Of a stretch of 64,000 nucleotides of DNA, positions 3,265 through 61,457 are shown in pieces. Position 1 is the first letter of the stretch. Each line of letters starts with the position of its first letter. Made by a program: the position numbers and the translations under genes. The notes beneath the pieces are model-generated. The model saw only the letters and a list, made by a program, of their open reading frames with translations, was not told the DNA's origin and made no database searches. This DNA is from Alloprevotella sp. (GTDB lineage Bacteria > Bacteroidota > Bacteroidia > Bacteroidales > Bacteroidaceae), in NCBI GenBank assembly GCA_017471505.1, contig JAFUTC010000004.1, positions 1-64,000 on the forward strand. Direction: 5' to 3'.

Positions 3265-4299
3265 ATGCCCCACTTCCCTGCCTGCCACATACTGTTTCCC
3301 ACGGCCGTCGAAGGAAGACACGTAGCCTTCTTCCTGGCCACCGAGGAGTACGTGGCGAAAAAATTCCCCAAGGACAGCTATTTCTTCACCTGGCGAGTAC
3401 CGGCCACCTGCATCTTCGGCATCAACCAAGACCCCCGGGCCGAACTCAACCTCGACTTCTGCCGCGCCAACCACATCCAACTGTGCCGGCGCAAGAGCGG
3501 AGGCGGCACGGTCTTTGCCGAGCAGAGCAACCTCATGCTCAGCCTCATCACCGAGAGCCTTCCCGTGGAGGAACTCTATGCCGAATATGCTCAGACCGTA
3601 GCCCAGACGCTCCGCAGCCTCGGCGCACCCGTGCAAGTCAGCGGCCGGAACGACATCGAGACCCTCGACCACCGCAAGATATGCGGCAACGCCTTCTATC
3701 GCATGCCCTGCCGGAACATCGTCCACGGCACCATGCTCTACGACACCGACCTGCCGCTCATGCTCGGCGCACTCACCCCCTCGTCCGAGAAACTCACCAC
3801 TCGCGGCGTCAAGAGCGTGCGCAGCCGCATCGGACTGCTCAAAGACTACCTCGCCATCAGCCTCGACGAACTGCGTGCCCACCTCATCGGCCAACTGACC
3901 GACCGCACCCTCACCCTCAGCGACGCCGACATGGCAGCCATCGAGCAAATCGAGCAGACCTACTACGACGAGGCCTACCTGTGGGGACGCCGCCACAATC
4001 GCCGCAGCATCGTGCGCAAAGCCTACATCGCAGGCTGCGGAACCATCGAGATACACCTCCACCTCACCCACGGACACATCGACCATATACATCTGCAAGG
4101 CGACTATTTCGAAACCGGCGAGCAGAGGACATCCGAGGCCTTCAGCCAAGCCTTTGCCGACTGCCCCTATACGCCCGAAGCCGTCGGACAGCGCATCCTG
4201 CGCTTCCATCCCGAACAAACCGTCGTGGGGCTCGGCGCCGACCAACTGGCCGCACTCCTTTGCCAGCCCTCCGACCAGCCCGACAGCGAACTCGCATAA
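3265..4299 (+). CDS. lplA: Lipoate-protein ligase A family protein
   Basis: This 344-residue enzyme should attach lipoate to lipoyl domains of 2-oxoacid dehydrogenase or glycine cleavage proteins through a lipoyl-AMP intermediate. RRKSGGGTVF (75-84) is the characteristic motif, HRKICGNAF carries the active lysine, and a C-terminal accessory domain is present. I start at ATG 3265, just upstream of the conserved N-terminus; longer in-frame readings run into the preceding gene. The stop codon TAA (4297-4299) lies inside the first core of a 21-bp repeat array. Confidence 0.9.
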   Translation: MPHFPACHILFPTAVEGRHVAFFLATEEYVAKKFPKDSYFFTWRVPATCIFGINQDPRAELNLDFCRANHIQLCRRKSGGGTVFAEQSNLMLSLITESLPVEELYAEYAQTVAQTLRSLGAPVQVSGRNDIETLDHRKICGNAFYRMPCRNIVHGTMLYDTDLPLMLGALTPSSEKLTTRGVKSVRSRIGLLKDYLAISLDELRAHLIGQLTDRTLTLSDADMAAIEQIEQTYYDEAYLWGRRHNRRSIVRKAYIAGCGTIEIHLHLTHGHIDHIHLQGDYFETGEQRTSEAFSQAFADCPYTPEAVGQRILRFHPEQTVVGLGADQLAALLCQPSDQPDSELA

Positions 4300-4387
4300 T
4301 GCCCTGCAGAAATCGCATAATTGTCCGCGAGAATTCAATAATCCGATTTCGAAACTCCATAATCCCGTTTGAACATACCATTATGGA
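4293..4387. repeat. 21-bp phased palindromic repeat array A (five cores)
   Basis: Five cores start at 4295, 4316, 4337, 4358 and 4379, each exactly 21 bp after the last. They read CATAATG, CATAATT, AATAATC, CATAATC and CATTATG. The first contains the lplA stop and the last contains the ATG of the SDR gene. Spacers are AT-rich and less conserved. It belongs to the same family as arrays B-F. Confidence 0.85.
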
Positions 4388-5132
4388 AACCACGCAACCC
4401 GTAAAGAAAGCCCTCGTCATGGGTGCCACGTCGGGCATCGGCAAGGAGGTGGCGCACCTGCTCGCCATGAAAGGCTGGCAACTGGCACTGGCCGGACGCC
4501 GCATCGACGTGCTCCGACAGTTGCAGAGCGAGTGGCCCGGCATCAGAGCCGTCGCACAAATCGACTTGACCGACAGCCAGGCCCCCACCCTCATCCGCCA
4601 ACTGATTGACACCATGGGCAGCATCGACCTCTACTTCCACTCGTCGGGCATCGGGTTTCAGAACGTGGCGCTCGACCCCGAAAAGGAGGAACGCACCGTG
4701 GCCACGAACGCCGTGGGGTTCACGCGAGCGCTGACGGCCGTCTTTAACCACTGCACCTCCGACCCCTCGCAACCGCTCCATATCGCCGTCATCTCGTCGA
4801 TAGCACGCACCAAAGGACTGGGCGCCGCTCCAGCCTATTCGGCCACCAAGCGATTTCAGAGCCACTATGTGGAAGGCCTGCAGCAACTGGCCGCCATCCG
4901 CCGCCTGCCCGTCACGTTCACCGACGTGCGTCCGGGATTCGTGGACACCGCTCTCATCGAAGGCTCCGACTTTCCGCTGAAACTGCAGCCCGCACGCGTG
5001 GCACGGCAGATTGTGCGTGCCGTCGAACGCCGCCGCTCCGTCGTCACCATCGACTGGCGCTACCGCCTGCTCGTGGCTGCCTGGCGACTGGTGCCGCGGT
5101 GGCTGTGGGTGCGCCTGCCCATACGCCGCTAA
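4383..5132 (+). CDS. Short-chain dehydrogenase/reductase (SDR)
   Basis: A 249-residue classical SDR oxidoreductase of unknown substrate. It has the NAD(P)-binding motif GATSGIG (14-20), an Asn at 109 in NAVG, a serine in VISSIA (about 138) and the catalytic YSATK (Y152, K156). The C-terminus is basic and rich in Trp, Arg and Leu (about 228-249), which could be a membrane-associating tail. The only sensible ATG (4383) lies in the last core of repeat array A, so its leader is repeat sequence. A weak hairpin with a T-run follows at about 5146-5172. Confidence 0.9.
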   Translation: METTQPVKKALVMGATSGIGKEVAHLLAMKGWQLALAGRRIDVLRQLQSEWPGIRAVAQIDLTDSQAPTLIRQLIDTMGSIDLYFHSSGIGFQNVALDPEKEERTVATNAVGFTRALTAVFNHCTSDPSQPLHIAVISSIARTKGLGAAPAYSATKRFQSHYVEGLQQLAAIRRLPVTFTDVRPGFVDTALIEGSDFPLKLQPARVARQIVRAVERRRSVVTIDWRYRLLVAAWRLVPRWLWVRLPIRR

Positions 5133-5199
5133 CCGCCCACGCTGACCGGCACGGAAGCCGGACCCCGTTTTTCTTTGCAAATAATGTCGGAATGCATAG

Positions 5200-6861
<1,662 letters not shown>

Positions 6862-6885
6862 AAACTACAACCTGATACTGAATAA

Positions 6886-8754
6886 ATGGATAAGAACACC
6901 ATTACCGGACTCATACTCATCGTGCTTGTCTTCATAGGATTCTCCTATCTGAACGCACCCCAACCCGTTGAGCCGACCGACACCGCAACCACCGACACCG
7001 CACAAGTGGCACCGCCCGCTGACAAGGCTGCCGCCACCACAGCAACCCTGGCCCAGCAGCCAGACACTACCGACCTGTTCTATGCGGCCGCTGCCGACAG
7101 CGCCGGCGAAATCGTCCTGCAGAACGAGAAGATTGCCGTAAAAATCGCTTCCAAAGGCGGTTGCATCGAAGAAGTCACACTGAAGGACTATAAGTCGTAC
7201 GCCGACTTCGCCGCCCACAAGGATGCCACCCTGTCGCTTTTCGACAAGACTACGGCATCGTGGAATATGGCCTTTGAAAGCCTCGGCGGACTGCACTTCA
7301 CCGAAAACTACCCATTCGCCCCCGTCGCACAAACCGACTCGTCGGCCACGCTTGCACTGGTCAGCACAAAGGGCGACAGCCTGCTCATCACCTACGAACT
7401 TATCCCCCACACCTACTTGGTAAACACCAAGGTGCAGACCATTGGCGCCAACTTCAAAGGCAACGACCTGCTCGTCAGCTGGAAGGACAAGGTCCATCAG
7501 TTAGAGAAAGGCCTGCGCTTCGAGAGCCAGTATTCGACGCTCACCTATAAGGACAGCGAGAAAGGCACCAAGAAACTGGCCGAACTCAAGGCCGACGCGA
7601 AAGACGACATCGTTGCCGCCGACTGGATAGCCTTTAAGAACCAATACTTCAGCGCAGTGGTGATTGCCGGCAACAAGAACTTCCGCCAGGTAAGCCTGCA
7701 GAGCGACACGTGCGGCAAGGGTTCCGGATTCGTGAAGAACTACGCCGCCGAGTTCAAACTGTCGGGCGAGGCAGCCAAGCAGTCAGGCGCTACCTTCCAA
7801 TACTACTTCGGTCCCAACCAATACCGCTACCTGAAGAGCATGGAGCAGTACCGGCTCAGCGAAAGCAAACTCGACCTGCAAGACCTCGTCTATCTGGGCT
7901 GGCCGATAGTGCGCTGGATTAACCGGTTCTTCACCATCTACGTCTTCGACTTCCTCACGGGCATCGGACTGAACATGGGCATCGTTCTCCTGTTGATTAC
8001 CCTGCTGCTGCGCGTGCTTGTCTACCCTGCCACGAAGAAGAGTTTCCTCAGCAGCGCGAAGATGCGCGTCCTGAAACCGAAACTGGACGAACTGACAAAG
8101 AAATACCCCAACAAGGAAGACGCCCTGAAGCGCCAGCAAGAGATGACGCAAATCTACAGTCAGTACGGCGTCAGTCCGATGGGCGGATGCCTGCCTATGC
8201 TCATACAGATGCCCATCTGGATTGCCATGTTCAACTTTGTGCCTAATGCATTCGAACTGCGCCAGCAGTCGTTCCTATGGGCCGAGGACCTCTCGACCTA
8301 CGACAGCCTGCTTTCGTGGGGAAAGGACATTTGGCTCATCGGCGACCACCTGAGCATCTTCTGCCTGCTCTTTTGCGGCACCAACCTGCTATACTCCTGG
8401 CTGATGATGCGACAGCAGAAAGACACCATGAGCGGCGAGCAAGCACAGCAGATGAAGATGATGCAATGGATGATGATGCTCATGCCGCTGTTCTTCTTCT
8501 TCATGTTCAACGAGTACTCAAGCGGCCTGAACTACTACTACTTCATCTCGCTCCTCGTGTCGGCACTGACCATGTGGTATCTGCGTAAGACCACCGACGA
8601 CAAGAAACTGATGGAGCAACTCGAAGCCAACTACAAGGCCAACAAGGAAGACCCCAACCGCAAGCCCTCGGGACTGGCCGCACGCCTGCAGGCCCTGCAG
8701 GAACAGCAAGAGGAAATCAAGAAACGCCAGCAGCATCTGGGCCGGCGCGACTGA
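6886..8754 (+). CDS. yidC: Membrane protein insertase YidC
   Basis: YidC inserts inner-membrane proteins alone or with SecYEG. The 622-residue protein has one N-terminal helix (about 5-23), a linker rich in Thr, Ala and Pro, a large periplasmic beta domain (about 80-330) and the conserved C-terminal insertase domain with several helices (from about 345), including LLLRVLVYPATKKS and the methionine-rich cytoplasmic loop QQMKMMQWMMMLMPLFF. A basic tail (about 580-622) may contact ribosomes. It is co-transcribed with pyrG and ends at a strong terminator. Confidence 0.97.
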   Translation: MDKNTITGLILIVLVFIGFSYLNAPQPVEPTDTATTDTAQVAPPADKAAATTATLAQQPDTTDLFYAAAADSAGEIVLQNEKIAVKIASKGGCIEEVTLKDYKSYADFAAHKDATLSLFDKTTASWNMAFESLGGLHFTENYPFAPVAQTDSSATLALVSTKGDSLLITYELIPHTYLVNTKVQTIGANFKGNDLLVSWKDKVHQLEKGLRFESQYSTLTYKDSEKGTKKLAELKADAKDDIVAADWIAFKNQYFSAVVIAGNKNFRQVSLQSDTCGKGSGFVKNYAAEFKLSGEAAKQSGATFQYYFGPNQYRYLKSMEQYRLSESKLDLQDLVYLGWPIVRWINRFFTIYVFDFLTGIGLNMGIVLLLITLLLRVLVYPATKKSFLSSAKMRVLKPKLDELTKKYPNKEDALKRQQEMTQIYSQYGVSPMGGCLPMLIQMPIWIAMFNFVPNAFELRQQSFLWAEDLSTYDSLLSWGKDIWLIGDHLSIFCLLFCGTNLLYSWLMMRQQKDTMSGEQAQQMKMMQWMMMLMPLFFFFMFNEYSSGLNYYYFISLLVSALTMWYLRKTTDDKKLMEQLEANYKANKEDPNRKPSGLAARLQALQEQQEEIKKRQQHLGRRD

Positions 8755-8795
8755 TTGGGCTTCCCCACACATAGCGACACACAAACGCTCCCCCA

Positions 8796-8823
8796 AAATA
8801 GCACCTGCGGCAGGTGCTATTTA
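8796..8823 (+). terminator. Intrinsic terminator after yidC
   Basis: A perfect 12-bp stem, AAATAGCACCTG (8796-8807) with CAGGTGCTATTT (8811-8822) around a CGG loop, followed by TTATATATAT. The T-tract is short but the stem is strong. Confidence 0.7.
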
Positions 8824-8880
8824 TATATATGGCCGACAATGAAAAAAAGCCGAGGCATAGACAATCTCACAATAATATGT

Positions 8881-8888: not shown

Positions 8889-8929
8889 CCTTAATTTAGT
8901 ATAAATGGGCACCAGCCCACCCCAACCGA

Positions 8930-11029: not shown

Positions 11030-11036
11030 AATTGCC

Positions 11037-15868: not shown

Positions 15869-16783
15869 GTGGCACAACTCATCCGCAAAATCCTTATCGT
15901 AATGGGCGCATACTTTTGTGTGTGCCCATTACTTCATGCCCAGGAGATAAACGCCCAAGTTGTCGTCACACACCTTAAGGTTGACCAGTCGTCGAACGCC
16001 GTTTTCCAAGACTTGCAGAAGTCGCTCCTCGACTTTATCAATAATCGCCAGTGGACCAACATGCAATTCCGCCGCAACGAACGCATCAACTGCGTCTTCA
16101 ATATTACGGTGGAAAACTACATTGAGGCCGACAAGCGCTTCGAATGCGTGCTGCGCGTCCAGGCCACGCGTCCAGTCTACAACTCGGGCTATACCACCAC
16201 CCTGTTCAGCAATCAAGACGACACGTTCACCTTCAACTACCAGGAATTCGACAAACTTGATTTCCGCGCCGACCTCATCGACAACGAGCTGACTGCACTG
16301 GTGGCCTACTACATCTATCTGATTATCGGCATCGACGAAGATGCCATGGCGCCGCTCGGAGGTACAGAGTATTTGGAAACGGCTCGCACCATCGTCAATA
16401 ATGCGCAGAACCTGTCGTCGAGTGGATGGAAGGCTTTCGGCAATCTGAAAAGCCGCTACACCATCATCAACGACATCCTGGACAGCGGCATGGAACCGTG
16501 GCGCAGACTTCAGTACAAATACTTCCGCGACGGACTCGACACCATGGCTGAGAACTCCGAGCGTGGCCGTGCTGCCATTGCCGATGCCATCGCATTGCTC
16601 GGCGAAGCACATGCCGACAAGCCGCTGTCGCAGTTGCCCGAACTCTTTACCGAATACAAGTCGGACGAAATCGTCCAAATCTTCAAGAAAAAGGGTTCCA
16701 TGTCCGAACGCGAGAAAGTCGTAGAGACGCTCCTCAATATCAACGCATCGAAATCGTCTGAGTGGAGCGAGATTCTCAACTAG
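15869..16783 (+). CDS. DUF4835 family protein (PorD-like)
   Basis: A 304-residue secreted protein of the DUF4835 family, annotated in some databases as type IX secretion protein PorD. The signal peptide (about 1-25) ends LLHAQ; the mature part begins with INAQVVVTHLKVDQSS, which is typical of the family, and has no obvious catalytic motif. I choose GTG 15869 because it gives a full basic-plus-hydrophobic signal; ATG 15902 would leave a short one. The dnaN-DUF4835-recN order with gaps of 12 and 2 bases suggests one transcript. The T9SS role is by family name only. Confidence 0.8.
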   Translation: MAQLIRKILIVMGAYFCVCPLLHAQEINAQVVVTHLKVDQSSNAVFQDLQKSLLDFINNRQWTNMQFRRNERINCVFNITVENYIEADKRFECVLRVQATRPVYNSGYTTTLFSNQDDTFTFNYQEFDKLDFRADLIDNELTALVAYYIYLIIGIDEDAMAPLGGTEYLETARTIVNNAQNLSSSGWKAFGNLKSRYTIINDILDSGMEPWRRLQYKYFRDGLDTMAENSERGRAAIADAIALLGEAHADKPLSQLPELFTEYKSDEIVQIFKKKGSMSEREKVVETLLNINASKSSEWSEILN

Positions 16784-20579: not shown

Positions 20580-20671
20580 CCCGCACGTAACCGTCTGCCC
20601 ACGGACATTAAACCCGACTGCCCTTCCCCCATCTAACAGACAAATTTCCGAAGCCCGTCATGCACGGCACA

Positions 20672-20750
20672 AATTGCACTATGCAACCGACAAACTGCAT
20701 TATGCAATCCGCCAGTTGCATAAGCGGATTTTCAAATTCCATAATCCCAT
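20672..20750. repeat. 21-bp phased palindromic repeat array B (four cores)
   Basis: Cores start at 20677, 20698, 20719 and 20740, exactly 21 bp apart, reading CACTATG, CATTATG, CATAAGC and CATAATC. They are preceded by TTG or TTC as in the other arrays. Degenerate neighbours flank it on both sides. It lies between two co-directional genes. Confidence 0.8.
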
Positions 20751-20778
20751 TTTCCATTCTCACCACACCCCGACAGAA

Positions 20779-23888: not shown

Positions 23889-23961
23889 GCCGAAATAGCT
23901 CAGTTGGTAGAGCGACTCATTCGTAATGAGTAGGTCGCCGGTTCGAGTCCGGCTCTCGGCT
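23889..23961 (+). tRNA. tRNA-Thr (anticodon CGT)
   Basis: A 73-base cloverleaf: 7-bp acceptor stem (one A-C mismatch), D arm with AGTTGGTA, anticodon stem ACTCA/TGAGT with loop TTCGTAA giving anticodon CGT (codon ACG), and T arm GCCGG-TTCGAGT-CCGGC. The discriminator is T and no CCA is encoded. It has its own promoter and terminator, so it is transcribed alone. Confidence 0.95.
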
Positions 23962-23986
23962 CAAAAGTCAGTTAAAGTATTAGAGG

Positions 23987-24111: not shown

Positions 24112-24915
24112 ATGAACAACGAGATTATCACCAGCACGCAAAACCCGCGCGTCAAGCGCTATATGGTCCTGCAGCAAAAGTCGTCCGAGCGTCGCAAGAC
24201 CGGACTCTTTGTGGTCGAGGGCCAGCGCGAAATCGAGCACTGCCTGTCCACCGGCCACACGATTGAAAGTCTCTTTGTGTGCACGGACATAGCCGGCGAG
24301 CGCGTCCCCTATGCCTCCTACCCGAGCGAGCAGGGCTGCACGTTCGTCAGTGCCCACGTCTATCGGAAAATAGCCTATCGCGACGGCACCGAAGGCGTGG
24401 TCGCCATCGTCCGCAGCCAACCGCGCACCCTTGCCTCACTGCAACTGTCCGACAACCCGCTCATCGTCGTGCTCGAGAGTGTCGAGAAACCCGGCAACCT
24501 TGGAGCCGTGCTGCGCTCGGCCGACGCCGCGAAGGCCGATGCCGTCATCGTATGCGACCCGCTTACCGACCTCTGCAATCCCAACCTCATACGCAGTTCC
24601 ATCGGCGCGTTCTTCACCGTTCCCACCGTGGCGTGCACCTCGGAAGAGTGCATCGCGTTCCTGAAGAGCAAGCACATACAAATTCTCACGGCCCAACTGC
24701 AGGACTCCTCACTCTACTACGCCACCGACATGCGCAGGCCGACGGCCATCGTCATGGGAACAGAGTCAACGGGACTTACCACGCAATGGCGCGAGGCAGC
24801 CGATGCCCACATCCGTATTCCGATGCTCGGCAAACTCGATTCGCTCAACGTGTCGGTCAGTACGGCCATACTGCTCTACGAAGCAGTACGCCAGCGTCTT
24901 ACGGCCACCGACTGA
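24112..24915 (+). CDS. TrmH/SpoU family rRNA or tRNA 2'-O-methyltransferase
   Basis: A 267-residue SPOUT-fold RNA ribose methyltransferase. The N-terminal substrate-binding domain (about 1-95) has STQNPRVKRYMVLQQKSSERRKTGLFVVEG. The catalytic knot domain has ESVEKPGNLGAVLRSADA (motif 1, with the catalytic Arg), IVMGTESTGL (motif 2) and LNVSVSTAILLYE (motif 3). The closest types are RlmB or the TsnR-like group; the exact target nucleotide cannot be told. It ends just before repeat array C, convergent with the GH2 gene. Confidence 0.88.
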   Translation: MNNEIITSTQNPRVKRYMVLQQKSSERRKTGLFVVEGQREIEHCLSTGHTIESLFVCTDIAGERVPYASYPSEQGCTFVSAHVYRKIAYRDGTEGVVAIVRSQPRTLASLQLSDNPLIVVLESVEKPGNLGAVLRSADAAKADAVIVCDPLTDLCNPNLIRSSIGAFFTVPTVACTSEECIAFLKSKHIQILTAQLQDSSLYYATDMRRPTAIVMGTESTGLTTQWREAADAHIRIPMLGKLDSLNVSVSTAILLYEAVRQRLTATD

Positions 24916-24916
24916 C

Positions 24917-25011
24917 GCCATAATCGGATAGAAAAATGGCATAATGGAATAGAAAAATGCCATTATGCAAAATGAAAAAAGCATTATGCAATCTGCGAAT
25001 TGCATAATGCT
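24917..25011. repeat. 21-bp phased palindromic repeat array C (five cores)
   Basis: Cores start at 24919, 24940, 24961, 24982 and 25003, exactly 21 bp apart, reading CATAATC, CATAATG, CATTATG, CATTATG and CATAATG. Two of the spacers share the stretch ATAGAAAAATG. The array fills the gap between two convergent genes and its last two units form a terminator-like hairpin. Confidence 0.88.
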
Positions 25012-25015
25012 TTTT
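24976..25015. terminator. Bidirectional terminator built from two array C repeat units
   Basis: AAAAAGCATTATGCAA (24976-24991) pairs perfectly with TTGCATAATGCTTTTT (25000-25015), extendable by one T-A pair, around a short loop. With A and T tracts at its ends it can terminate both convergent transcripts (the SpoU gene and the GH2 gene). Confidence 0.75.
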
Positions 25016-25048
25016 CCGTAACTGAATAAGAGGTTCTGACTGAACGAC

Positions 25049-27547
25049 TTACTTGCTCTGCAGTTTCACCTTGGCCGCCTTCAGTCCCCTACTCTTTGCT
25101 TCGAGGACGATAGAGCCGGCTTTCTCCGTGCTCGACACGATGGCGATCATCATACCCGAGAACACTTTCATCTGCGGGCGCTGGAACGATTCGAGCGAGG
25201 CCGGATTGCCGTTGGCGCCTGCCCGGTAGGTGCCCGCGCCTTTAACCGTGAAACTAATCTCGTTCTCGGCCGTCGGACATAGGTTTCCGTCCTTGTCAAC
25301 CACTTTCACGGTCACGAACGACAGGTCGCGGCCGTCGGCCGACAGATGCGTGCGGTCGGGCTCTAACACGATGTGGTGAGGAGCGCCGGCCGTCTTGAGC
25401 GTAGCCTCGGCTCGGGCGTGGCCGTCCTTATCGTAGGCAACCACACGTATCTCGCCTGGCTCGTAGCGCGTGTCCATCCACATCAGTCGATAGCGCTTCT
25501 GGCGTTTCAGTTGCGACGTCGAGAGCGAGTCGGCACTGTTGGCAATCGTCACGCTAAGGTCTTTCGTGCGCTTGCCCTGGCTCTTGCCGTTGATGAACAG
25601 TTCGGCCGTCGGATAGTTGGTATATACGAAGACCGGAGTAACCTCGCCTTCGCGTCCGGGCCACGTCCAATGTGGCAATATGTGAAGCGTCTCGGCCGAC
25701 TTGTTCCAATGGCTGCGATAAAGGTAGTATCGGTCCTTGGGAATGCCCGCCAGGTCGATGATGCCGAATAAGGAGGAGTGGCTGGGCCAATCGGAATAAT
25801 AAGGAGTAGGCTCGCCAAGATAGTCGTAGCCCGTCCATACGAATTCGCCCAACGTGTTGGGCAGTTCGTCGTGTTGGATAAAATCGTCCTCGGGCGTATT
25901 CGACCAGCCGCAAACCTCGACATCGTAAGAGGAAGCCTGATGGTCGGCGTATTTTGCCATGGCCTTCCGCTCTACCGGGAACTTGTATATGCCGCGCGAA
26001 CTGACTGTCGAAGCGGTTTCTGACCCCAACAGGAAATTCTGAGGCAGACGCTTCAGGTTTTCCACATACTTGTGCGGCCGGTAGTTAAAGCCGGGAATGT
26101 CCATCACGGCAGCCATGCCGTTGGCCATCACTGCATCGGGCGCATCCATGCCTTGCGTGACCGGACGCGTGGGGTCTTCGCGGTGGCATATCTGCTGCAA
26201 CTGCAACGAAAGACGCGGGCCTCGCTCGGCATTCCATTGGTCGGAAACCTCGTTGCCGATGCACCACATCACGACACTCGGGTTGTTGCGATACTGGCGT
26301 ATGAGATTGGTCAGGTCGCGCTCCACCCACTCAGGGAAGAAGCGGTTGTAGCCGTTCTGCACCTTCGGAGTCTGCCATTCGTCGAACGATTCGAGCATGA
26401 GCATCATACCTTCCTCGTCACAGATGCGCACCAATTCGGGAGCCGGCATATTGTGCGACGTACGAATGGCGTTGCATCCCATGTCCTTAAGAGTCTTCAC
26501 CTGCCGGCGAATGGCCGACTCGTTGACAGCCGTACCCAGCGGACCGAGGTCGTGGTGATTGCACACGCCCTGAAACTTCAGTTTTTCTCCGTTCAGGAAA
26601 AATCCCTCGCCCTGACGGACTTCCGTGGTGCGAATACCGAAGCGCGTGGTGTAAGTATCAACCAAGCGCTTGCCTTCATACACCTTCGTTTCCGACACAT
26701 AGAGCACGGGAGACGAAGGCGTCCACAACTGCGGATTGCTGACCACGAAATGCTGCGTCAGCCTATGGTCGGAGTAGTCGTCGTACTTCCCCTCGGCGCT
26801 GGCCACCACCTTGCCGGCAGCATCCTTAATCTGGGTTTTCAGCCGATAGTCGGCGGCGTTCGCACCCATGGGCAACTGCAGCGAGGTAGTCTGCGACAGG
26901 CAGGCATAAGCAGGCGTCAGCCTCTCGGTAACGACCTGCGTGCCCCATACGGGGACATGTGCCTTGGACGTAGTAAGAAAGTGGACGTTGCGATAGAGTC
27001 CGGCTCCGGGATACCAACGGGAACTCTCGGTCAGGTTCTCCAGACGCACGGCCACCACGTTGTCTCCGGCGCGAAGATGGGGCGTGGCATCGACCACAAA
27101 CGAGTTGTAGCCATACGGCCATACCGCTGCCAGCGCTCCGTTTATGTAGACCTGAGCCTGGCTCATGGCTCCGTCGAACACCAGCGTGTAGTCGCGCTGC
27201 GGGTCAATCCGGTCAATCAACAGGTGCCTGCGATACCAGCCTACGCCTACGAACGGAAGTCCTCCCGTACGGCCGGCGTGCTCCATCGCCTCGGTCTGCC
27301 CGTCTTGCGCAATGGCCACGTTCTGCTTGTCGTTACTGATGGAAAACGGGCCGTATATTGCCCAGTCGTGCGGTACGCGGACCTGCTGCCATCCCGCCTC
27401 CGACACATTCACGTCCTTATTGGCCGGACTGTCGTCGTGCGTGAAAAACCAGTCTTTCTCCCACAACTGTTCGGTTCGCACCTGTGCCGAGGCCGACAGC
27501 CCTATGGCAAACAGGCACGTCAATATCCAATGGGTTGGTTTATACAT
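25049..27547 (-). CDS. Secreted GH2 family beta-galactosidase-like enzyme
   Basis: An 832-residue exported glycoside hydrolase. The signal peptide (about 1-21, ending ASAQ) is followed by the sugar-binding and sandwich domains and the GH2 TIM barrel. Glu433 in CIGNEVSD is the expected acid/base and Glu510 in LLGSETAST the expected nucleophile. A DUF4982-like domain and a C-terminal Ig-like domain (about 730-832) follow. The likely activity is beta-galactosidase on host or plant glycans in the periplasm; substrate is inferred from family. It lies 36 bases after the uridine phosphorylase gene on the same strand. No SusC/SusD genes are nearby. Confidence 0.88.
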   Translation of the reverse strand: MYKPTHWILTCLFAIGLSASAQVRTEQLWEKDWFFTHDDSPANKDVNVSEAGWQQVRVPHDWAIYGPFSISNDKQNVAIAQDGQTEAMEHAGRTGGLPFVGVGWYRRHLLIDRIDPQRDYTLVFDGAMSQAQVYINGALAAVWPYGYNSFVVDATPHLRAGDNVVAVRLENLTESSRWYPGAGLYRNVHFLTTSKAHVPVWGTQVVTERLTPAYACLSQTTSLQLPMGANAADYRLKTQIKDAAGKVVASAEGKYDDYSDHRLTQHFVVSNPQLWTPSSPVLYVSETKVYEGKRLVDTYTTRFGIRTTEVRQGEGFFLNGEKLKFQGVCNHHDLGPLGTAVNESAIRRQVKTLKDMGCNAIRTSHNMPAPELVRICDEEGMMLMLESFDEWQTPKVQNGYNRFFPEWVERDLTNLIRQYRNNPSVVMWCIGNEVSDQWNAERGPRLSLQLQQICHREDPTRPVTQGMDAPDAVMANGMAAVMDIPGFNYRPHKYVENLKRLPQNFLLGSETASTVSSRGIYKFPVERKAMAKYADHQASSYDVEVCGWSNTPEDDFIQHDELPNTLGEFVWTGYDYLGEPTPYYSDWPSHSSLFGIIDLAGIPKDRYYLYRSHWNKSAETLHILPHWTWPGREGEVTPVFVYTNYPTAELFINGKSQGKRTKDLSVTIANSADSLSTSQLKRQKRYRLMWMDTRYEPGEIRVVAYDKDGHARAEATLKTAGAPHHIVLEPDRTHLSADGRDLSFVTVKVVDKDGNLCPTAENEISFTVKGAGTYRAGANGNPASLESFQRPQMKVFSGMMIAIVSSTEKAGSIVLEAKSRGLKAAKVKLQSK

Positions 27548-35852: not shown

Positions 35853-35887
35853 GCAAATTTTCGCTCAACGCAGTCCGCCCGGCACGT

Positions 35888-36000
35888 CCCATTATGGAAC
35901 GCACAAATTGCATAATGCGATTTCAGAATTGCATAATGCGATTTTCAAATTACATAATGCCATTTCGCGATGGTATTATGCAATTTTTCCGACACATCGC
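35888..36000. repeat. 21-bp phased palindromic repeat array D (six cores)
   Basis: Cores start at 35890, 35911, 35932, 35953, 35974 and 35995, exactly 21 bp apart, reading CATTATG, CATAATG, CATAATG, CATAATG, TATTATG and a degenerate CATCGC. It lies between the divergent hemW and dnaX promoters without overlapping either. Confidence 0.88.
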
Positions 36001-36071: not shown

Positions 36072-37817
36072 ATGGACAACTATATCGTATCAGCCCGGAA
36101 ATACCGCCCGCAGACCTTTGAAAGCGTGGTCGGCCAGCATGCCCTTACGCAAACGCTCAAGAACGCGATAGCCAGCGGCAAACTGGCCCATGCCTACCTG
36201 TTCTGCGGACCGCGCGGCGTGGGAAAGACTACTTGCGCACGCATCTTCGCCAAGACCATCAACTGCTTCAACCTTTCGGCCGACGGAGAAGCCTGCAACG
36301 AATGCGAAAGCTGCAAGGCCTTCAACGAAAACCGCTCGATGAACATCTTCGAACTCGACGCGGCGTCGAACAATTCCATAAACGACATCCGCTCCATCGT
36401 AGAGCGAGTGAACATTCCCCCGCAGATAGGCCGCTACAAGGTATTCATCATCGACGAGGTGCACATGCTGTCGCAGGCCGCCTTTAACGCATTCCTGAAG
36501 ACGCTCGAGGAACCGCCTGCCCACGTAATCTTCATCATGGCCACCACCGAGAAGCACAAGGTAATCCCCACCATCCTGTCGCGCTGCCAAATCTACGACT
36601 TCCAGCGCATGGACCTGGGCGACATCATCGGGCACCTGCGCTACGTGGCCAAGCAGGAAGACATCGAAGCCGAAGACGCAGCGCTCCACCTCATAGCCCA
36701 GAAGGCCGACGGCGGCATGCGCGACGCCCTCTCCATATTCGACCAGGTGTGCAACTACTCGCAGGGAAAGGTGACCTATAACACCGTCATCGAAGACCTC
36801 AATATTCTCGACTACGAATACTATTTCAAAGCCACCGACGACTTCCTTCGCATCGACTACAAGAGTGCCCTGCTCACGCTCAACGAGATTCTCAACAAAG
36901 GCTTCGATGCCCAGCAATACATAGGCGGACTTGCCTCGCACTTCCGCAATCTGCTCGTGGCACGCGACAAGGAAACATTGCCGCTGCTCGAAGTGAGCGA
37001 CGACGTACGCAATCGCTACCACGAACAAGCCAATCGCTGCAATCCGCGCTTCCTTTATAAGGCCATAAAAATCTGCAGCGACTGCGACGCCCAGTACCGC
37101 ACAAGCCGGAACAAGCGGCTCACCGTCGAACTGGCCCTTATCGAACTGGCACAAATTGAGCAAGCCGATGCAGACCCCTCGTCGGGGCTTGGCCCTACAC
37201 GAAGACTTAAACCACTAGCCAAGACCGCCACACAAAAAGCACAGGCCACCCCATCCCCGTCACCCAAGTCCGAACCCGCCTCAAAGGCTTCCGCACCGGA
37301 CGCACCGAAGCCGAAGCCTGTCGCCCCCCAGCCCTCAAGGCCCGGCACTATCAGCCGGAGCATCTCGCTAAAGGGCAACCGGCCGGGCAATAGCGCATCC
37401 GACGCCTCCCTCAGCACTACCGGCTCGTCGCAACCGACACCGGCACCAGACGACAGCCCGTTTACCGAAGAAGAAATGCGTTCGCAGTGGGTGAACTATT
37501 ATCTCAACCTGCCGCAAGAAGAATCGGCCCTGCAAGGCCGCATGAAAATCATACAGCCCACGCTTGTAGGCACCGAGGAAGTACTTGTCAAGGTCAGCAA
37601 CGAATGGGTACTGAACGATTTCAATCGAATTAAACCAGAAATCGAACAGTATTTCCACAAAAACCTAAACAACAGCAAGATAAGACTGCGCATCGAACAA
37701 GTAGAACACGATGCATCGACCCGTCCCATAACCCGGGCCGAAGTGTTCGATGCAATAAAAAAAGAATACCCTGCCGTACGAGACTTCTGCAACAGTCTTG
37801 AACTGAAACTCTATTAG
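36072..37817 (+). CDS. dnaX: DNA polymerase III subunit gamma/tau
   Basis: The clamp-loader ATPase, 581 residues. Walker A GPRGVGKTT (46-54), the zinc module C65-C75-C78-C81, Walker B/DEVH IIDEVH (126-131), sensor 1 TTEKHKVIPTILSRCQ, then domain III. A linker rich in Pro, Ser and Lys (about 365-470) precedes a tau-like C-terminal domain. dnaN and dnaX are both in this window but about 20 kb apart. I saw no convincing slippery site for a short gamma product. First gene of dnaX-slyD-aroC. Confidence 0.96.
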   Translation: MDNYIVSARKYRPQTFESVVGQHALTQTLKNAIASGKLAHAYLFCGPRGVGKTTCARIFAKTINCFNLSADGEACNECESCKAFNENRSMNIFELDAASNNSINDIRSIVERVNIPPQIGRYKVFIIDEVHMLSQAAFNAFLKTLEEPPAHVIFIMATTEKHKVIPTILSRCQIYDFQRMDLGDIIGHLRYVAKQEDIEAEDAALHLIAQKADGGMRDALSIFDQVCNYSQGKVTYNTVIEDLNILDYEYYFKATDDFLRIDYKSALLTLNEILNKGFDAQQYIGGLASHFRNLLVARDKETLPLLEVSDDVRNRYHEQANRCNPRFLYKAIKICSDCDAQYRTSRNKRLTVELALIELAQIEQADADPSSGLGPTRRLKPLAKTATQKAQATPSPSPKSEPASKASAPDAPKPKPVAPQPSRPGTISRSISLKGNRPGNSASDASLSTTGSSQPTPAPDDSPFTEEEMRSQWVNYYLNLPQEESALQGRMKIIQPTLVGTEEVLVKVSNEWVLNDFNRIKPEIEQYFHKNLNNSKIRLRIEQVEHDASTRPITRAEVFDAIKKEYPAVRDFCNSLELKLY

Positions 37818-52068: not shown

Positions 52069-53229
52069 CTAATAGACTTCGACGTAGGAAGCCAGCCGCT
52101 TGGCTTTATCGCGGAGGTCGTCGATGGAAGCCTTATCGTCGCCAGACACAAGTACGACACCCATGCGGCGATGCAAGCGCGTGAACGGCTTGCCGAATAT
52201 GCGCAGGTCGGCATCCTCCTCGCAGGTAAGTTCGATGCCCTTGTAGCGAGGCGGCTCAAACGAGGCAATGGGCGACAGGATTACGGCACTGGCACCCTTG
52301 CGCAGTTGCTTGATGCACGGGATAGGCATGCCGAGCACGGCGCGCAGGTGAAGTTCGAACTCGCTAAAGTTCTGCGTGCCGGCAAGCGTCACCATTCCAG
52401 TGTCGTGCGGACGTGGCGACAACTCGGAGAAATAGACCTCGTCGCCTTTCAGGAAAAACTCCACGCCCCATATTCCGGCGCCGGTGAGAGCCTTGGTCAC
52501 CTGGTCGGCCATCCGTTGTGCCTTTTCAATCTGTACTTCCGTCACGCAGGCGGGCTGATAGCTCTCGCGATAGTCGCCGTGCTTCTGAACGTGGCCAATA
52601 GGTGCGCAGAACAAAGTCGGTCCGTTCTTCTGCGTAACCGTGAGCAACGTAATCTCACTGTCGAACGGTATGAATTCTTCAACGATGACCTCAGCCAAAT
52701 CGCCGCGGCTTCCGTCCATAGCTTCTTTCCACGCGGCGCGAAGTTCGTCCTCATTGTCCACGCGACTCTGTCCGTGGCCGCTTGACGACATCAACGGCTT
52801 GATGATGCAGGGGAATCCAATGACGCGGGTTGCCTCCTCGAGTTCGGCATAGGTGCGTGCATAGCGATAGTTAGCGGTTTTGAGGCCAAGTTCCTTGGCG
52901 GCGAGGTCGCGAATGGCCTTTCGGTTCATCGTATAGTTGACCGCGCGGGCCGAAGGCACCACCTGGATGCCAATCTTCTCGAAGTCGTAGAGTTTCTCGG
53001 TGCGGATAGCCTCAATCTCGGGCACAATGATGTCGGGGTTATGCTTGCGCACCACTTGGTCAAGGGCTTCGCCGTCGAGCATACTGAAAACCTCAGCCTC
53101 CTGCGCCACTTGCTGAGCGGGAGCGCCTGCATAACTGTCGCAGGCTACTACGTAATGTCCCAGCCGCAATGCAGCAATCGTAAACTCCTTGCCAAGCTCG
53201 CCGGAGCCTAATAGAAGAATTTTTTTCAT
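52069..53229 (-). CDS. purT: Formate-dependent phosphoribosylglycinamide formyltransferase PurT
   Basis: PurT is an ATP-grasp enzyme (386 residues) that formylates glycinamide ribonucleotide using formate and ATP, an alternative to PurN in purine synthesis. It begins [25 protein letters not shown] and contains [29 protein letters not shown] and [28 protein letters not shown]. PurK is related but shorter. It is preceded by repeat array E, and the efflux operon ends on the far side of that array. Confidence 0.95.
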
Positions 53230-53289
53230 ACCGTAAAATTGATGGTTAATACTACTTGCCAGACGACTTTCTGCCGCCTATGCAATTTT

Positions 53290-53385
53290 AGCATAATCCG
53301 ATGAAAAAATCCCATAATACAATCGAAAAATTGCATTATGGAATTTGAAAATTGCATTATACAATTTTTTTATCGCATAATGCAA
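53290..53385. repeat. 21-bp phased palindromic repeat array E (five cores)
   Basis: Cores start at 53292, 53313, 53334, 53355 and 53376, exactly 21 bp apart, reading CATAATC, CATAATA, CATTATG, CATTATA and CATAATG. A degenerate TATAAG sits in register at 53397. The array lies in the gap (53230-53418) upstream of purT and downstream of the efflux operon, both on the minus strand. Confidence 0.88.
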
Positions 53386-53418
53386 TTTCTTTGCTCTATA
53401 AGGATATCAAAAGCACGC

Positions 53419-54651: not shown

Positions 54652-54654
54652 CGT

Positions 54655-55815: not shown

Positions 55816-55850
55816 GCTGTTTCTCTTTTCCGCCGCCTCAGGACGCTATG

Positions 55851-56855
55851 CTATTTCAGCAAAACCGACATGCCCGGACGCACGCCTTCGGGCTTCTTGA
55901 CAAAACGTCCCTTCACCTCGAAGGTTTTCATATCGAAGCGACCCGTGGCCTTGGTGGCTTTCCATGCCGCATAGCTGCCCAGGTCCTTCATATAATAGAT
56001 GTTCAGCTCCTCATCCTCCAACTGGAGCGCGGGAATATCGACTTTGATGGTCTCGCCCACCTTGAAGCGACTCAGATAGTCTTCGCGCACGTTGAAAGAG
56101 ACCCACATCTGGTCCATAATAGACACGGTCATGATTGGACTACCGGTTCCCACCAGTTCGCCCACCTTCGGGAAGATTTCCGTGACTTCTCCGTCGGCAG
56201 AGGCGGTGAGAATGGTTTCGTCGATATAGGAACTGACTTCTTTCACTACGCCCTGAGCCCGTGCCACCATTGCCTGGGCCGCGCTCTTATCTTCTCGGCG
56301 CGCACCCGATACGGCCATGTCGTATTGCGACTTGGCGGCCTTCTCGGTGGCTATTGCGGCGTCGCGCTGAGCCTTGGCCTCGTCGAGTTTCTGCGTAGGA
56401 AGCACACCCTCGGAAGCAAGACGCTGGACGCGCTGATAAGTCTTTTCGGCAATCTCACTGCCGGCCTTGGCCTTCTGCCAAATGTCGTAGGCGCCTTGTA
56501 TCTCCTCCTTGCGCGCACCGTTATTGGCTTTCTCGCTTTGCGCATTGGCGGCCCAGCGGGCTGCCTCGGCCTGAGCCAGTTTAGCATCTACGTCGGGTGC
56601 TTCCAAGATGGCCAGCGTGTCGCCTTTATGGACGAAGTCGCCTTCTTTGACCTTTAGTTCCAAAATCCTTGCCGGCACCTTGCTGGATACGCGGTATTCG
56701 TCGACATCTACCTCGCCCTGGATGGTTTCATCGTTCGAGCGGAAGACATATACACTGGTCAGCGCGACAATCGCTATGACAAGCATAAACAACAATAGTG
56801 CCGGAACCGGACTAATACGTTTGGAGGTTGATTCCTCCGACTTCTGTGCATTCAT
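55851..56855 (-). CDS. HlyD-family periplasmic adaptor protein
   Basis: A 334-residue membrane-fusion protein. A single N-terminal helix (about 19-38) anchors it; the biotinyl-lipoyl halves (VSSKVPARILELKVKEGDFVHKG and TASADGEVTEIFPKVGELV) flank a coiled-coil hairpin rich in Ala, Lys and Glu (about 92-205), with a beta-barrel domain at the C-terminus. It should bridge the inner-membrane permeases to the TolC-type channel encoded seven bases upstream. Confidence 0.93.
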   Translation of the reverse strand: MNAQKSEESTSKRISPVPALLLFMLVIAIVALTSVYVFRSNDETIQGEVDVDEYRVSSKVPARILELKVKEGDFVHKGDTLAILEAPDVDAKLAQAEAARWAANAQSEKANNGARKEEIQGAYDIWQKAKAGSEIAEKTYQRVQRLASEGVLPTQKLDEAKAQRDAAIATEKAAKSQYDMAVSGARREDKSAAQAMVARAQGVVKEVSSYIDETILTASADGEVTEIFPKVGELVGTGSPIMTVSIMDQMWVSFNVREDYLSRFKVGETIKVDIPALQLEDEELNIYYMKDLGSYAAWKATKATGRFDMKTFEVKGRFVKKPEGVRPGMSVLLK

Positions 56856-56862
56856 ATCTGTG

Positions 56863-58374: not shown

Positions 58375-58389
58375 TATTATTTTGTGATG

Positions 58390-58419
58390 CAAAATTATAA
58401 CACAATTATGGCATTCAAT
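58390..58419 (-). promoter_or_regulatory. Promoter of the efflux operon
   Basis: On the minus strand ATTG (58416-58419), 18 bases, then TAATTTTG (58390-58397), close to the Bacteroidetes consensus. Transcription would start near 58383, giving a leader of only about 10-15 bases. Confidence 0.6.
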
Positions 58420-58486
58420 ATTGCGCGATGCCAATTTATTGAACGTCTAACCACATTTTCCGCCATTTTGACCAAAATGCAGTATC

Positions 58487-58530
58487 AAAAAAGGACATTT
58501 CACCCCCTTTTGGATGCAAAACAAGGGGGT
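58487..58530 (-). terminator. Possible terminator after addB
   Basis: ACCCCCTT (58502-58509) and AAGGGGGT (58523-58530) form an 8-bp stem. On the minus strand a T-run follows about ten bases later (near 58487-58492), a looser arrangement than a classical terminator. The rest of the gap 58420-58569 shows nothing I recognise. Confidence 0.4.
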
Positions 58531-58569
58531 TATTGCCGAAAATCCTATCCGCCGAAATGCTGCTATGCC

Positions 58570-61368
58570 TTAGTAGTCGACCTTGTCTTTCAGACACAGC
58601 AACCGGTAGTCGCAAAACCTGCATACCATTGACTTGTCTGAACCTGAGAATGTGTTGTCATCGGCGAACATACGGTTATTCAACATTTTCATAAACTCAT
58701 CTTCATAGGCCTTAAAATCCTTGTCGTCGATGATATATGGTTCCTTGCCATAACCCACGAAGTGGTGCCGGCTGCCGTATGGATGGAACAATTGGGCCGA
58801 TACTTTTTGGCCCTTTGCTATTTGGTCGCGCACAATCAGCGCATACAGGAAAATCTGCAGATAGTACCGGTCGTGCATGCCAACGTTGTCGGTCGTGAAG
58901 AAATGCTTCATGTCGGTTACCCCTTCGGCTTTCCGACCCGTCTTGTAGTCGAGCACACGCACCACACGCTCGCCAGAATCATCGTCATAGGAATCGAGGC
59001 GGTCGATAATACCGCCTATCGGTATCTGAATTTTCTTTCCCTTGAAATCGACTTCGAAATAGCGAGTCATGGTATGCTCGAGAGCCAGAATACGTAGGTT
59101 CTTCCGCTTCGCATCTTCGTCGGTAAGAATTGTCAACTGGCGCCGCAGCGTCTCCATGACCAGCGGATTCTTCGGAGCCTTGGTTTCGTCAAAGACAAGG
59201 TCGAGTATCTCCTCCACGAAGTTGTTGTCGGCCGCAAAGCGCTTCAGTTCGTTGCAATCCACGGGTTTGTCAATCCATGTATTCTTGTCGGAAATGGCAT
59301 CCTTAGGCTCCATTTGGCAAAGCATAGCCTTGTAGAAAGTCATAGCCATCAAGTGAAACAGATTACCGAAGGTTCTGCCGTCAATATCATCGTCCAGAAT
59401 CTCTTCCCTCTTCAGCCGGGCCACATTGTTATAGTAGAACTGCAGCGGACAATCGATAAAGCTATTTATTGCCGACGGCGAGAGATAAGGATCCTTGAGA
59501 TGGCGCGAGCGAAGCAGCAATTCGACCATATTGGCGGGTTTGCCGTACCTCGGACTTACAAAAGGCGTGGGCTGCGTATGGCATTCAATCGCATACTTAC
59601 GGATGGGGTGCTTCCCACTGACCAGCAACTGCAACAGATAGCGCGAGCGGTCGCAGGGTTGCCCGTTGTTCTCGGAACCGTTATAGACGAACGTCACCTT
59701 ACTGGCTCGTTGCAGTAACCGATAGAAATGATAGGACGTGGCAGCCGTCTTGTGCTCCGGAAGCGTTAGTTCGTAGGCTTTACGCAGTATGTAGGGAATG
59801 TAGGAGTCGGCCATCTTTGTCTGCGGAAGGTAGTTCTCGTTGGCCGACAGTATGAGAATATGCTCAAAGTCGAGGTTTCGCGTCTCGAGCATGCCCAAAA
59901 TCTGCACGCCTACCAATGGGTCGCCTTCAAACGGTATGGTCTGTGCGCCGATTAACTGCCGTACCAATCGGTGCAAAGTGCTTATGTTCACGTCGAACAG
60001 GCCTTTCTGATGCAGGGTATAGAGGCGGTTGAGCGAGGCATAGACCTGGAAGAGCGCCTCGGCATCGAGCAGAGCCATAAAGCGGGAATACGACGAGGGC
60101 TGTCGGTCGGGCTGGCCGGCTTGCGCCTCGGCTTCGGCCGTCTCCAAGTCCTCCAGCCGACTTGCTGCCTGCTGTGTAGCCGTGCCAACATGGTCGAGCA
60201 ATTCGCTAAAGGCTTTTAGCGTGGTTAGTGTCTTCTTCTGGCTTCGGCGGAAGTATTCGTCCACAATGGCATAGGCCGACGTGCGCACAACCGGGTAGCC
60301 CTTGGTCAGGTTAACGTCGGCCACGCTGACAGTAGGAAGGGCATGGACAATGCCGTCTATTAAATCTTCGTTGCAAAGCACCACTGCAGTCTTGCGAGCA
60401 TCGTCGCGGGTCAGGTTTTGGGCAATCCAAGCCGGGGCATAATAGGCCTGTCCATTTTCCGTCTGAGCCTGCACGAATTCAAACTCTTTCTGGCCTTCAT
60501 AATTATGGAACAGGTCCTCGCCTAACTGGTTCGGGAAATCCTTCAGGTTCTTCTTCAGGAAAAGACCGGCCTCCATGCCTGGATTTTCCTTTAAGTAATA
60601 TGTGTCATAATCCCAGTAAAACAGTGCCTTATTGTTTTTCCTTGCAGCCTCAAACAATTCTCGCTCGACACGCGACAAAATGTTAAATCCGACAAAGACA
60701 AGCGTCTGCTTCGGCAGTCGGTTTTCGAGGTCATTATTTACGACGCGGCGCTGCAACGCTCCTTCGTAGGCCAAGCCCTCTCCCTCGAGTTCGTGGTTGA
60801 ATTGCGTATAGATGTCAAACAGTTTCGCCCACACACGCGCAAATCTTTCCTGCACCTTCGACGCTTCATTTGCGCTGTTGCGACATACGGCATTCAAGGC
60901 CGACCTTTGTTCTTCGGTCAAGTAGTTGAAAACATCCAGTTCGTGCAGGTCTTTCGCGTTCTTCAATAGCGACTCGGCACTGTAGTTGAATGGAAGATTG
61001 CGGTCGATGTCGTTAAAATCTTCCAGCAATATTTCTCCCCACGACCAGAATTGGTCGAGCGTCTCGTTGCTCTGCATAATGTTCTTATAAACATTATAGA
61101 GCCGGCACACAGCCTCGATGGAATCGACGAGCTGAAGGTCGGACAGCGAGGCAAACAGTTCCGCTATCGACAAATACTTAGGCGTCCAGACCTCACCCCC
61201 CACCTTGCGATAGAGCGCATCGTTGAAGAAAGCCGAGGCACGCTTGTTGGGAAACACCACCATATAGTTGCTGAAGTCGTTCCCGGTGGTTTTCTTCACC
61301 AGGTCGGACACAACCGTTTCAAGAAAAGTCATAGGTTTTGTCTTGCTATTTGCGTTTTCAGTTTGCAT
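58570..61368 (-). CDS. addB: AddB-like PD-(D/E)XK exonuclease of the AddAB recombination complex
   Basis: A 932-residue protein with a degenerate helicase-like N-terminal part and a C-terminal PD-(D/E)XK nuclease. The nuclease shows RVVRVLDYKTGRK. The iron-sulfur cysteines are at CPLQFYYN and CRFCDYRLLC (Cx2Cx5C), as in AddB. AddAB unwinds and resects double-strand breaks, like RecBCD. It lies downstream of addA on the same strand, separated by repeat array F. Its start codon (61366-61368) falls in register with that array. Confidence 0.88.
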   Translation of the reverse strand: MQTENANSKTKPMTFLETVVSDLVKKTTGNDFSNYMVVFPNKRASAFFNDALYRKVGGEVWTPKYLSIAELFASLSDLQLVDSIEAVCRLYNVYKNIMQSNETLDQFWSWGEILLEDFNDIDRNLPFNYSAESLLKNAKDLHELDVFNYLTEEQRSALNAVCRNSANEASKVQERFARVWAKLFDIYTQFNHELEGEGLAYEGALQRRVVNNDLENRLPKQTLVFVGFNILSRVERELFEAARKNNKALFYWDYDTYYLKENPGMEAGLFLKKNLKDFPNQLGEDLFHNYEGQKEFEFVQAQTENGQAYYAPAWIAQNLTRDDARKTAVVLCNEDLIDGIVHALPTVSVADVNLTKGYPVVRTSAYAIVDEYFRRSQKKTLTTLKAFSELLDHVGTATQQAASRLEDLETAEAEAQAGQPDRQPSSYSRFMALLDAEALFQVYASLNRLYTLHQKGLFDVNISTLHRLVRQLIGAQTIPFEGDPLVGVQILGMLETRNLDFEHILILSANENYLPQTKMADSYIPYILRKAYELTLPEHKTAATSYHFYRLLQRASKVTFVYNGSENNGQPCDRSRYLLQLLVSGKHPIRKYAIECHTQPTPFVSPRYGKPANMVELLLRSRHLKDPYLSPSAINSFIDCPLQFYYNNVARLKREEILDDDIDGRTFGNLFHLMAMTFYKAMLCQMEPKDAISDKNTWIDKPVDCNELKRFAADNNFVEEILDLVFDETKAPKNPLVMETLRRQLTILTDEDAKRKNLRILALEHTMTRYFEVDFKGKKIQIPIGGIIDRLDSYDDDSGERVVRVLDYKTGRKAEGVTDMKHFFTTDNVGMHDRYYLQIFLYALIVRDQIAKGQKVSAQLFHPYGSRHHFVGYGKEPYIIDDKDFKAYEDEFMKMLNNRMFADDNTFSGSDKSMVCRFCDYRLLCLKDKVDY

Positions 61369-61457
61369 ATTTCAATTTCCCGTTTCAAGGCTTGGAATTT
61401 GTATTTCAAGGCTTGAAACGGACATTCCAAGCCTTGGAATGGAATGAGACATAATGC
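61366..61457. repeat. 21-bp phased repeat array F with a switched palindromic core
   Basis: Core centres lie at 61390, 61411, 61432 and 61453, exactly 21 bp apart. The first three are palindromes TTTCAAGGCTTGGAA, TTTCAAGGCTTGAAA and ATTCCAAGCCTTGGAAT. The fourth is CATAATG, the core of the other arrays. A degenerate CATATTT, centred at 61369, holds the addB start. It fills the addA-addB gap. Confidence 0.85.

Follow-up and report, generated by a model that had tools for sequence, protein, structure and literature searches.

What kind of element is formed by the short palindromic cores that recur at exactly 21 bp in gaps between genes of an Alloprevotella sp.? The question is raised by positions 1 to 64,000 of contig JAFUTC010000004.1 (GCA_017471505.1), the whole of which is called the window below, and in which a first-pass annotation had placed six intergenic arrays (A to F). 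The arrays were followed through the genome that holds the window (G000; 1.44 Mb in 15 contigs, 77% complete) and through relatives, among them G002 of the same genus, which includes NCBI contig JAFVDF010000009.1 (Alloprevotella sp. RGIG5064). The results point to a system of some related gut bacteria that has not been described before and that may serve to anchor or partition the chromosome. The reading that we prefer, with a probability of somewhat under one half (about 0.47), is that they are sites for cooperative, fast-evolving dimeric DNA-binding proteins, probably acting as chromosome-domain anchors.

Phasing, symmetry and unit number of the arrays

In the window the motif GCATWATGC occurs eight times against an expectation of 0.53, a count reached by none of 100 shuffles, and the strict pair CATWATG-N14-CATWATG occurs six times and never in 100 shuffles. 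The six arrays were found where they had been placed, with counts far above the shuffled expectation, and the common CATWATG core proposed for five of them was present in A to E (Table 1). The description of all six as intergenic arrays of four to six cores stood in its positions and its 21-bp pitch, but array A is only partly intergenic and array F has three strong cores. Array A probably reaches into both neighbouring genes, the end of one and the start of the other; the scripted gene calls were crude longest open reading frame (ORF) calls, by which some arrays, A included, score inside ORFs. Array F consists of three TTTCAAGGCTTGAAA-like units at 21-bp pitch, flanked in register by CATATT (61369) and CATAATG (61453).

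Over the whole genome the strict pair was present at 97 places and its reversed pattern at none. In the intergenic autocorrelation (344 kb) lag 21 ranked first of 47 lags, with 70 palindrome pairs against a mean of 8.4 at the other lags, so that the genome-wide excess at lag 21, the main test proposed with the first-pass annotation, is present. A unit profile built from CATWATG pairs on contig C1 (344 kb) gave the symmetric consensus AAATTGCATWATGCAATTT in the 21-bp unit, and both the fixed phasing and the twofold symmetry hold. Scanning with this profile returned 40 chains, of which 7 with fewer than three units were left out; among the remaining 33, with three or more units, five units were the most frequent number (22 of 33). 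The edges of these 22 arrays are sharp: each unit carries 23-28 bits within the array, the adjacent 21-mers 2.5-3.8 bits. They are also symmetric as a whole, their first and last units being relaxed in the inner halves. What is kept is the palindrome with its flanking A/T positions, while the linkers vary. The second core type (type 2) was found as three units of TTTCAAGSCTTGAAA in array F and in two further copies on C1; three units were counted in all three type-2 arrays of G000 and in six of the seven of G002.

Table 1. Arrays and other features in the 64-kb window, with the G002 gap corresponding to array C.
Feature	Position	Strand	Description
Array A	4288..4392	no strand	five CATWATG-type units, centres 4298, 4319, 4340, 4361, 4382
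Array B	20670..20753	no strand	four units, centres 20680, 20701, 20722, 20743
Array C	24912..25016	no strand	five CATWATG units, centres 24922-25006, convergent gap
Array D	35883..35987	no strand	five CATWATG units, centres 35893-35977, divergent gap upstream of dnaX-like gene
Array E	53285..53389	no strand	five CATWATG units, centres 53295-53379, upstream of purT-like gene
Array F	61380..61442	no strand	second core type, units TTTCAAGGCTTGGAA / TTTCAAGGCTTGAAA / TTCCAAGCCTTGGAA, centres 61390-61432
Array C gap in G002	3' end of the ortholog of gene 24,112-24,915	no strand	no array found
dnaX-like gene	36072-37817		presumably dnaX, the name being taken from the N-terminal sequence
purT-like gene	52069-53229	minus	presumably purT
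tRNA-Thr (CGT)	23889-23962		sole RNA gene found in the window

A second defined build was seen in the relative G036 (395 kb), where exactly four inner units GTTACAAASTTTGTAAC were counted in 17 of 18 arrays, the remaining array, with variant inner units, being counted as two units. To either side of the inner units stand units of another type, which have T or A tracts and centres that vary (such as CTCCGAG, CTGCGCAG or CTTATAG). By eye and consensus there are about four outer units per side; a strict tract count gave 0-4 per side, with 0 for about half of the sides. Half-sites were compared in the 17 four-unit arrays, and 16 of the 17 variants were located at the two central half-sites. In 16 of the 17 arrays one and only one of this pair was changed, mostly from TTAC to TTAG, on the right in nine arrays and on the left in seven (zero overlap, P = 4e-4 in a post hoc test). 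With the arrays oriented by this central mark, the rest of the array was not significantly polar (P = 0.074); the one array without a central variant was left out of both tests. Outer-type units with no inner unit were observed at about 25,750-25,860 of G036:C3 (L242).

Maintenance of the palindromes by base pairing was tested in 186 neighbouring unit pairs of 47 arrays from G000 and G002. The excess of complementary combinations was -1.6% for the unit dyad and -0.4% for pairing between units, with a best value at any dyad of about +1%. Since no compensatory covariation was found, the symmetry lies in half-sites and not in stems. Selection for hairpins or cruciforms, at which single arrays had hinted (near 73,686 and 103,937 of C1), was rejected on this systematic test. 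Bacterial interspersed mosaic elements (BIMEs) bind gyrase. Repetitive extragenic palindromic (REP) and BIME sequences are described as dispersed intergenic palindromes in many copies and several families, some species-specific, and those associated with REP-associated tyrosine transposases (RAYT) as carrying a GTAG or CGTC tetranucleotide at one palindrome end (PMC3733652). The present arrays are likewise dispersed intergenic palindromes in many copies and several families, but they differ in their strict 21-bp phasing, odd-centred palindromes, usual unit number and even spacing. The consensus of the 22 five-unit G000 arrays carries neither a GTAG nor a CGTC tag, the arrays lack pairing covariation, and no PF01797 protein was found in G000. 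It is scarcely credible that the arrays are hairpins acting in RNA, as terminators or stabilisers, or REP/BIME-type elements: the units are palindromic and intergenic, T runs follow some of them, and the unit consensus of another relative, G065, contains CTAC and GTAG, one per half, but compensatory changes are absent within and between units and arrays also occupy divergent gaps. The PF01797 transposase was present in five of 12 genomes, once each in the array-bearing G036 and G064, and was not found in the array-bearing G000 (77% complete), G002 (58%), G065 (95%), G032 (96%) and G013 (89%).

Spacing along the chromosome and cores at orthologous gaps

Spacing was compared with a null of random choices of intergenic gaps. 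In G000 the intervals have a mean of 10.6-10.9 kb, and for the 33 chains a coefficient of variation (CV) of 0.46 and a minimum of 1.9 kb. With the weak chain at C1:183,580 removed (32 chains), the CV was 0.42 against 0.97 in the null (P < 5e-5) and the minimum 4.25 kb, and adding the three type-2 arrays gave a CV of 0.41. In G036 nine intervals of 15.0-29.3 kb (about 20 kb) have a CV of 0.23 against 0.68 in the null (P < 1e-4); an array truncated by the end of the C13 stretch adds a tenth interval of 34.2 kb (CV 0.28, P = 0.0006). Support for even spacing was weaker in the four other species. G065 had a CV of 0.33 (P < 5e-5) for 19 chains that include weak ones (scores from 23; reversed control 0), G064 a CV of 0.42 (P = 0.009) for 10 arrays, made up of eight chains and two arrays of another core, and G032 a CV of 0.41 (P = 0.0097) for nine arrays. 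For G002, 21 arrays of both types gave a CV of 0.59 (P = 0.013) and a smallest interval of 7.4 kb (P = 1e-4), with a hybrid array at 146.7 kb counted as type 1 and six of the seven type-2 chains entered. The closest approach of type-2 to type-1 arrays was larger than chance in both species (5.6 kb in G000, P = 0.001; 7.4 kb in G002, P = 0.009), and the mean distance between types was significant in G000 (P = 0.003). On other contigs, which were kept out of these tests, none of the 22 intervals of G002 was below 8.3 kb and none of the seven of G000 below 6.1 kb, among the positions listed.

The first-pass annotation had held that the arrays are not tied to one promoter type, and this agrees with the count: the orientation classes of 25 clearly intergenic G000 arrays match those of all other gaps that measure 100 bp or more (chi-square P = 0.27). 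Since the even spacing runs through convergent, divergent and co-directional gaps alike, it argues for a role along the chromosome rather than at promoters, and the anchoring of loops or supercoil domains would be the simplest such role. It is accordingly improbable that the arrays serve as operators for a large regulon under one or two global transcription regulators. Regulators usually have palindromic cores that are species-specific, and a changing specificity, and arrays D and E lie upstream of genes, but the three gap orientations are used about in proportion to the gaps and a regulon would not predict even chromosomal spacing. Less probable still are self-marking sites, Chi-like, that would be recognised by a processive enzyme, be it a nuclease, a loop extruder or a modification system, and would spare chromosomal DNA. 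Even spacing and different cores in sister species would fit such sites, and symmetric ones could work from both directions; on the other hand no such enzyme was linked to the arrays, and CATWATG triples occur in only five stretches of the viral collection (counted without regard to host). Three of these five were viewed, and phages were rejected as the source. One of the three, viral contig L176, does carry three GGACATAATGTCC palindromes at 21 bp (3540-3588).

Of five array-bearing gaps of G000 whose counterparts were examined in G002, three hold an array there as well, namely the upstream gaps of the dnaX-like gene, the purT-like gene and the gene that follows array B. All three G002 arrays are TTTCACASTGTGAAA x3, where G000 has four or five CATWATG units. 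By our own arithmetic the chance of other-core arrays at three of five gaps is about 0.0025 (with about seven type-2 arrays per 108 gaps), and that of arrays of any type about 0.05. That close relatives fill the same gap with different cores speaks for selection acting on place or spacing. Upstream of dnaX, clear 21-bp arrays were seen in G000, G002, G036 and G061 among 22 species, those of G002 and G036 with cores that differ from array D; the signal was weak in G022, and G073 and G075 showed a 22-bp periodicity. The G073 array (L296) is built of the even palindrome TCACCGTGGTGA with period 22. In more distant species array position is not conserved beyond the density expectation. The synteny comparison comprised 81 conserved gene pairs only, one of which has an array in either species.

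The main rival, which explains more than any other alternative, is a non-autonomous mobile element that is dispersed and has arrays to which a transposase or recombinase binds; its families would differ by species, and target immunity over several kb would produce the even spacing. We regard it as unlikely, roughly to the degree of an event expected one time in four. Miniature inverted-repeat transposable elements have terminal inverted repeats, target-site duplications and copies alike throughout; the present arrays are symmetric as a whole and more alike than the null, with flanks at null mean identity. Maximum pair identity exceeded a null of independent columns in G036 (0.786 against 0.694) and G000 (0.867 against 0.799), although uneven array quality can likewise raise it. 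The flanks stand at the null mean (0.28-0.32), with the single most similar flank pair above the null. The one-sided central mark gives the G036 arrays polarity, but orienting them by it did not significantly raise similarity elsewhere (P = 0.074). Occurrence among species is patchy, and in one case a 387-bp gap of G013 that bears an array is matched by one of 27 bp in G002. Another core at the same gap in three of five cases would, however, be unexpected for random insertion.

Species-specific cores among relatives and known elements

Further species of Alloprevotella carry arrays that keep the 21-bp pitch but have cores of their own; palindromy was shown in G000, G002, G036 and G064. Among 61 genomes the CATWATG pair was found at 97 places in G000 and 19 in G002, while five others had one each, about as expected by chance; 33 of 35 other genomes of the same genus had none and two had one each. 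The reversed control of this first search gave five matches in G036, which were attributed to the linkers of that genome's own arrays, and one in G034. A core-free search of stretches of relatives revealed the other 21-bp arrays. Pairs of TTACAAASTTTGTAA (at most 3 mismatches) numbered 231 in G036 and 0 in 57 other genomes, and pairs of TTTCACASTGTGAAA (at most 2 mismatches) 82 in G002, 12 in G030 and 0 in the other 56. CTCNGAG triples (at most 1 mismatch) in 151 genomes of the family were counted 117 times in G064, 24 in G065, once in G031 and zero times in the remaining 148, with reversed-control matches in G213 (9), G144 (2) and G173 (1). CTCCGAG-like arrays were present in G032 and G013.

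Lag 21 ranked first of 47 in the intergenic autocorrelation of 10 of 12 genomes with samples of at least 60 kb, the signal of G015 including a tandem repeat, and never ranked first in 15 genomes with smaller samples (<60 kb). Core-free odd-palindrome pairs 21 bp apart were in clear excess in G000, G002, G036 and G064. As a second array-bearing genus of the family G213 was rejected, its matches being largely one sequence repeated in several contigs; one 21-bp array of this genome looks related. This array (L270, about 1400-1570) has units such as TCTAACTCCGTGG and CTAAGAGCCTTGA and is possibly the same phenomenon. On G013:C2 (L227) composite elements of about 290 bp lie 7-9 kb apart at 100-420, 7330-7640 and 16150-16440, with CTCSGAG units on either side of a middle that holds a recurring AATAAAGGG or its complement. 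Further 21-bp arrays of CATAATG or CATTATG with similar linkers were observed in L101, L107 (Paradesertivirga mongoliensis) and L119 (a Sphingobacteriaceae metagenome-assembled genome), those of L101 and L107 having nine units.

Elsewhere, CATWATG triples occur in at least 100 genome stretches, of which 22 were viewed and proved by eye to be mostly near-identical tandem repeats. Those viewed share with the present arrays the period of 21 and CATWATG in tandem; here, in contrast, the palindrome and A/T flanks are kept and the linkers vary. A tandem minisatellite was rejected on the same ground and on the usual number of five units in G000 or four inner units in G036. Clustered regularly interspaced short palindromic repeats were rejected too, since the units diverge, there is no separate spacer and core pairs occur at 97 places of the genome.

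The palindromic sites of matS/MatP, Noc and SlmA each serve one protein, are dispersed and organise the chromosome, as single sites with conserved cores. The arrays are similarly dispersed along the chromosome, where an organising role would be comparable, but they are phased and evenly spaced, and their cores are not the same from one sister species to the next. Iterons, parS clusters and Lrp or Fur arrays are phased repeats with cooperative dimer binding at one or few loci. The present arrays are also phased and may bind dimers cooperatively, but they recur once per 10-20 kb. The first-pass annotation knew of no described element with this layout, and none has emerged since: at gathering scores Rfam gave one match in the window, a tRNA, and no named repeat family, and among the matches listed by a literature search, whose scope lay outside most subscription journals and bioRxiv preprints, the parts of the texts available described neither phased 21-bp palindrome arrays nor evenly spaced intergenic elements.

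A candidate docking site and its meaning

Dimers assembled on one face of the DNA are suggested by four features: symmetric half-sites that are independent of each other, a pitch equal to two turns of the helix, a usual number of units, and sharp edges. Each array would then be a docking site for the cooperative assembly of dimeric, sequence-specific DNA-binding proteins. One putative dimer per 21-bp palindrome would place all dimers on one helix face, and they would form a complex of defined size, usually with five units in G000 and with four inner units plus outer units in G036. Such complexes, one about every 10 kb in G000 and every 20 kb in G036, may anchor or delimit chromosome loops or supercoil domains. 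Binding specificity would change fast, the core differing between species and at several loci in place, with pitch and spacing kept.

These steps bear on three proposals of the first-pass annotation. Repeated binding of a protein on one helix face fits the absent compensatory pairing and the defined unit number in G000 and G036. The even spacing speaks for a nucleoid or domain-organising element and makes that function a plausible one. For a repeat spreading between loci the evidence is divided: arrays are more alike than independent columns predict, but the core differences at the same gap are not what random insertion would be expected to leave.

Several observations count against cooperative dimer docking at domain anchors. 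No array-binding protein was identified in this sequence analysis. Neighbouring units share bases 3.5% above independence at lag 21, which hints at local copying, and curvature is weak, with an A/T-step power at 10.5 bp of 0.91 against 0.38 in shuffled sequence; intrinsic curvature was rejected as the main feature on this weak signal. In G002 evenness falls short of significance when type-1 arrays are taken by themselves (P = 0.135), as does the mean distance between the two types (P = 0.14), and an array-free stretch of 54 kb holds housekeeping genes, judged from 10 of its 47 called proteins, which leave its identity as a mobile island unsupported. Two of the five gaps looked up in this species, upstream of the gene at 58,570-61,368 and at the 3' side of the gene at 24,112-24,915, hold no array. 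No array was found upstream of dnaX in 15 of the 22 species (one of them represented by a 183-bp stretch) or upstream of purT in 16 of 18, only G000 and G002 having one. Lag 21 ranked only 6th in G017 and 18th in G025 (60-kb samples), and three other genera, with 40 kb each, showed nothing at this lag. Core-free palindrome pairs were not in excess in G065 (4 against 4.2), G032 (7 against 6.3) and G004 (3 against 3.5), although direct lag-21 similarity nevertheless ranked first in all three. The number of units per chain also varies, from 2-4 in G064, 2-5 in G065 and G032 to 3-6 in G002. The variable unit number and the failed core-free counts in G065 and G032 weaken the docking-site reading and raise the mobile element.

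In the usual view a bacterial chromosome consists of supercoil domains of about 10 kb, and diffusible supercoils move in 10-kb domains (PMC3420936). To our knowledge no evenly placed sequence elements that would set such domains are known. Arrays that can be counted, that follow a defined build and that change from one sister species to another make the domain question directly testable. It is possible, if still tentative, that the genus has a sequence-encoded ruler, in which nucleoprotein sites of defined build about every 10-20 kb would set the length of loops or supercoil domains, with the binder and its palindrome co-evolving fast. Equally tentatively, the sites of such a ruler would be polar in at least one species, and sister species would use different palindromes at the same loci, much like the turnover of eukaryotic centromere repeats. 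Close relatives with unlike cores at shared loci would then be an example, rare among bacteria, of a DNA-binding protein that co-evolves fast with about a hundred sites.

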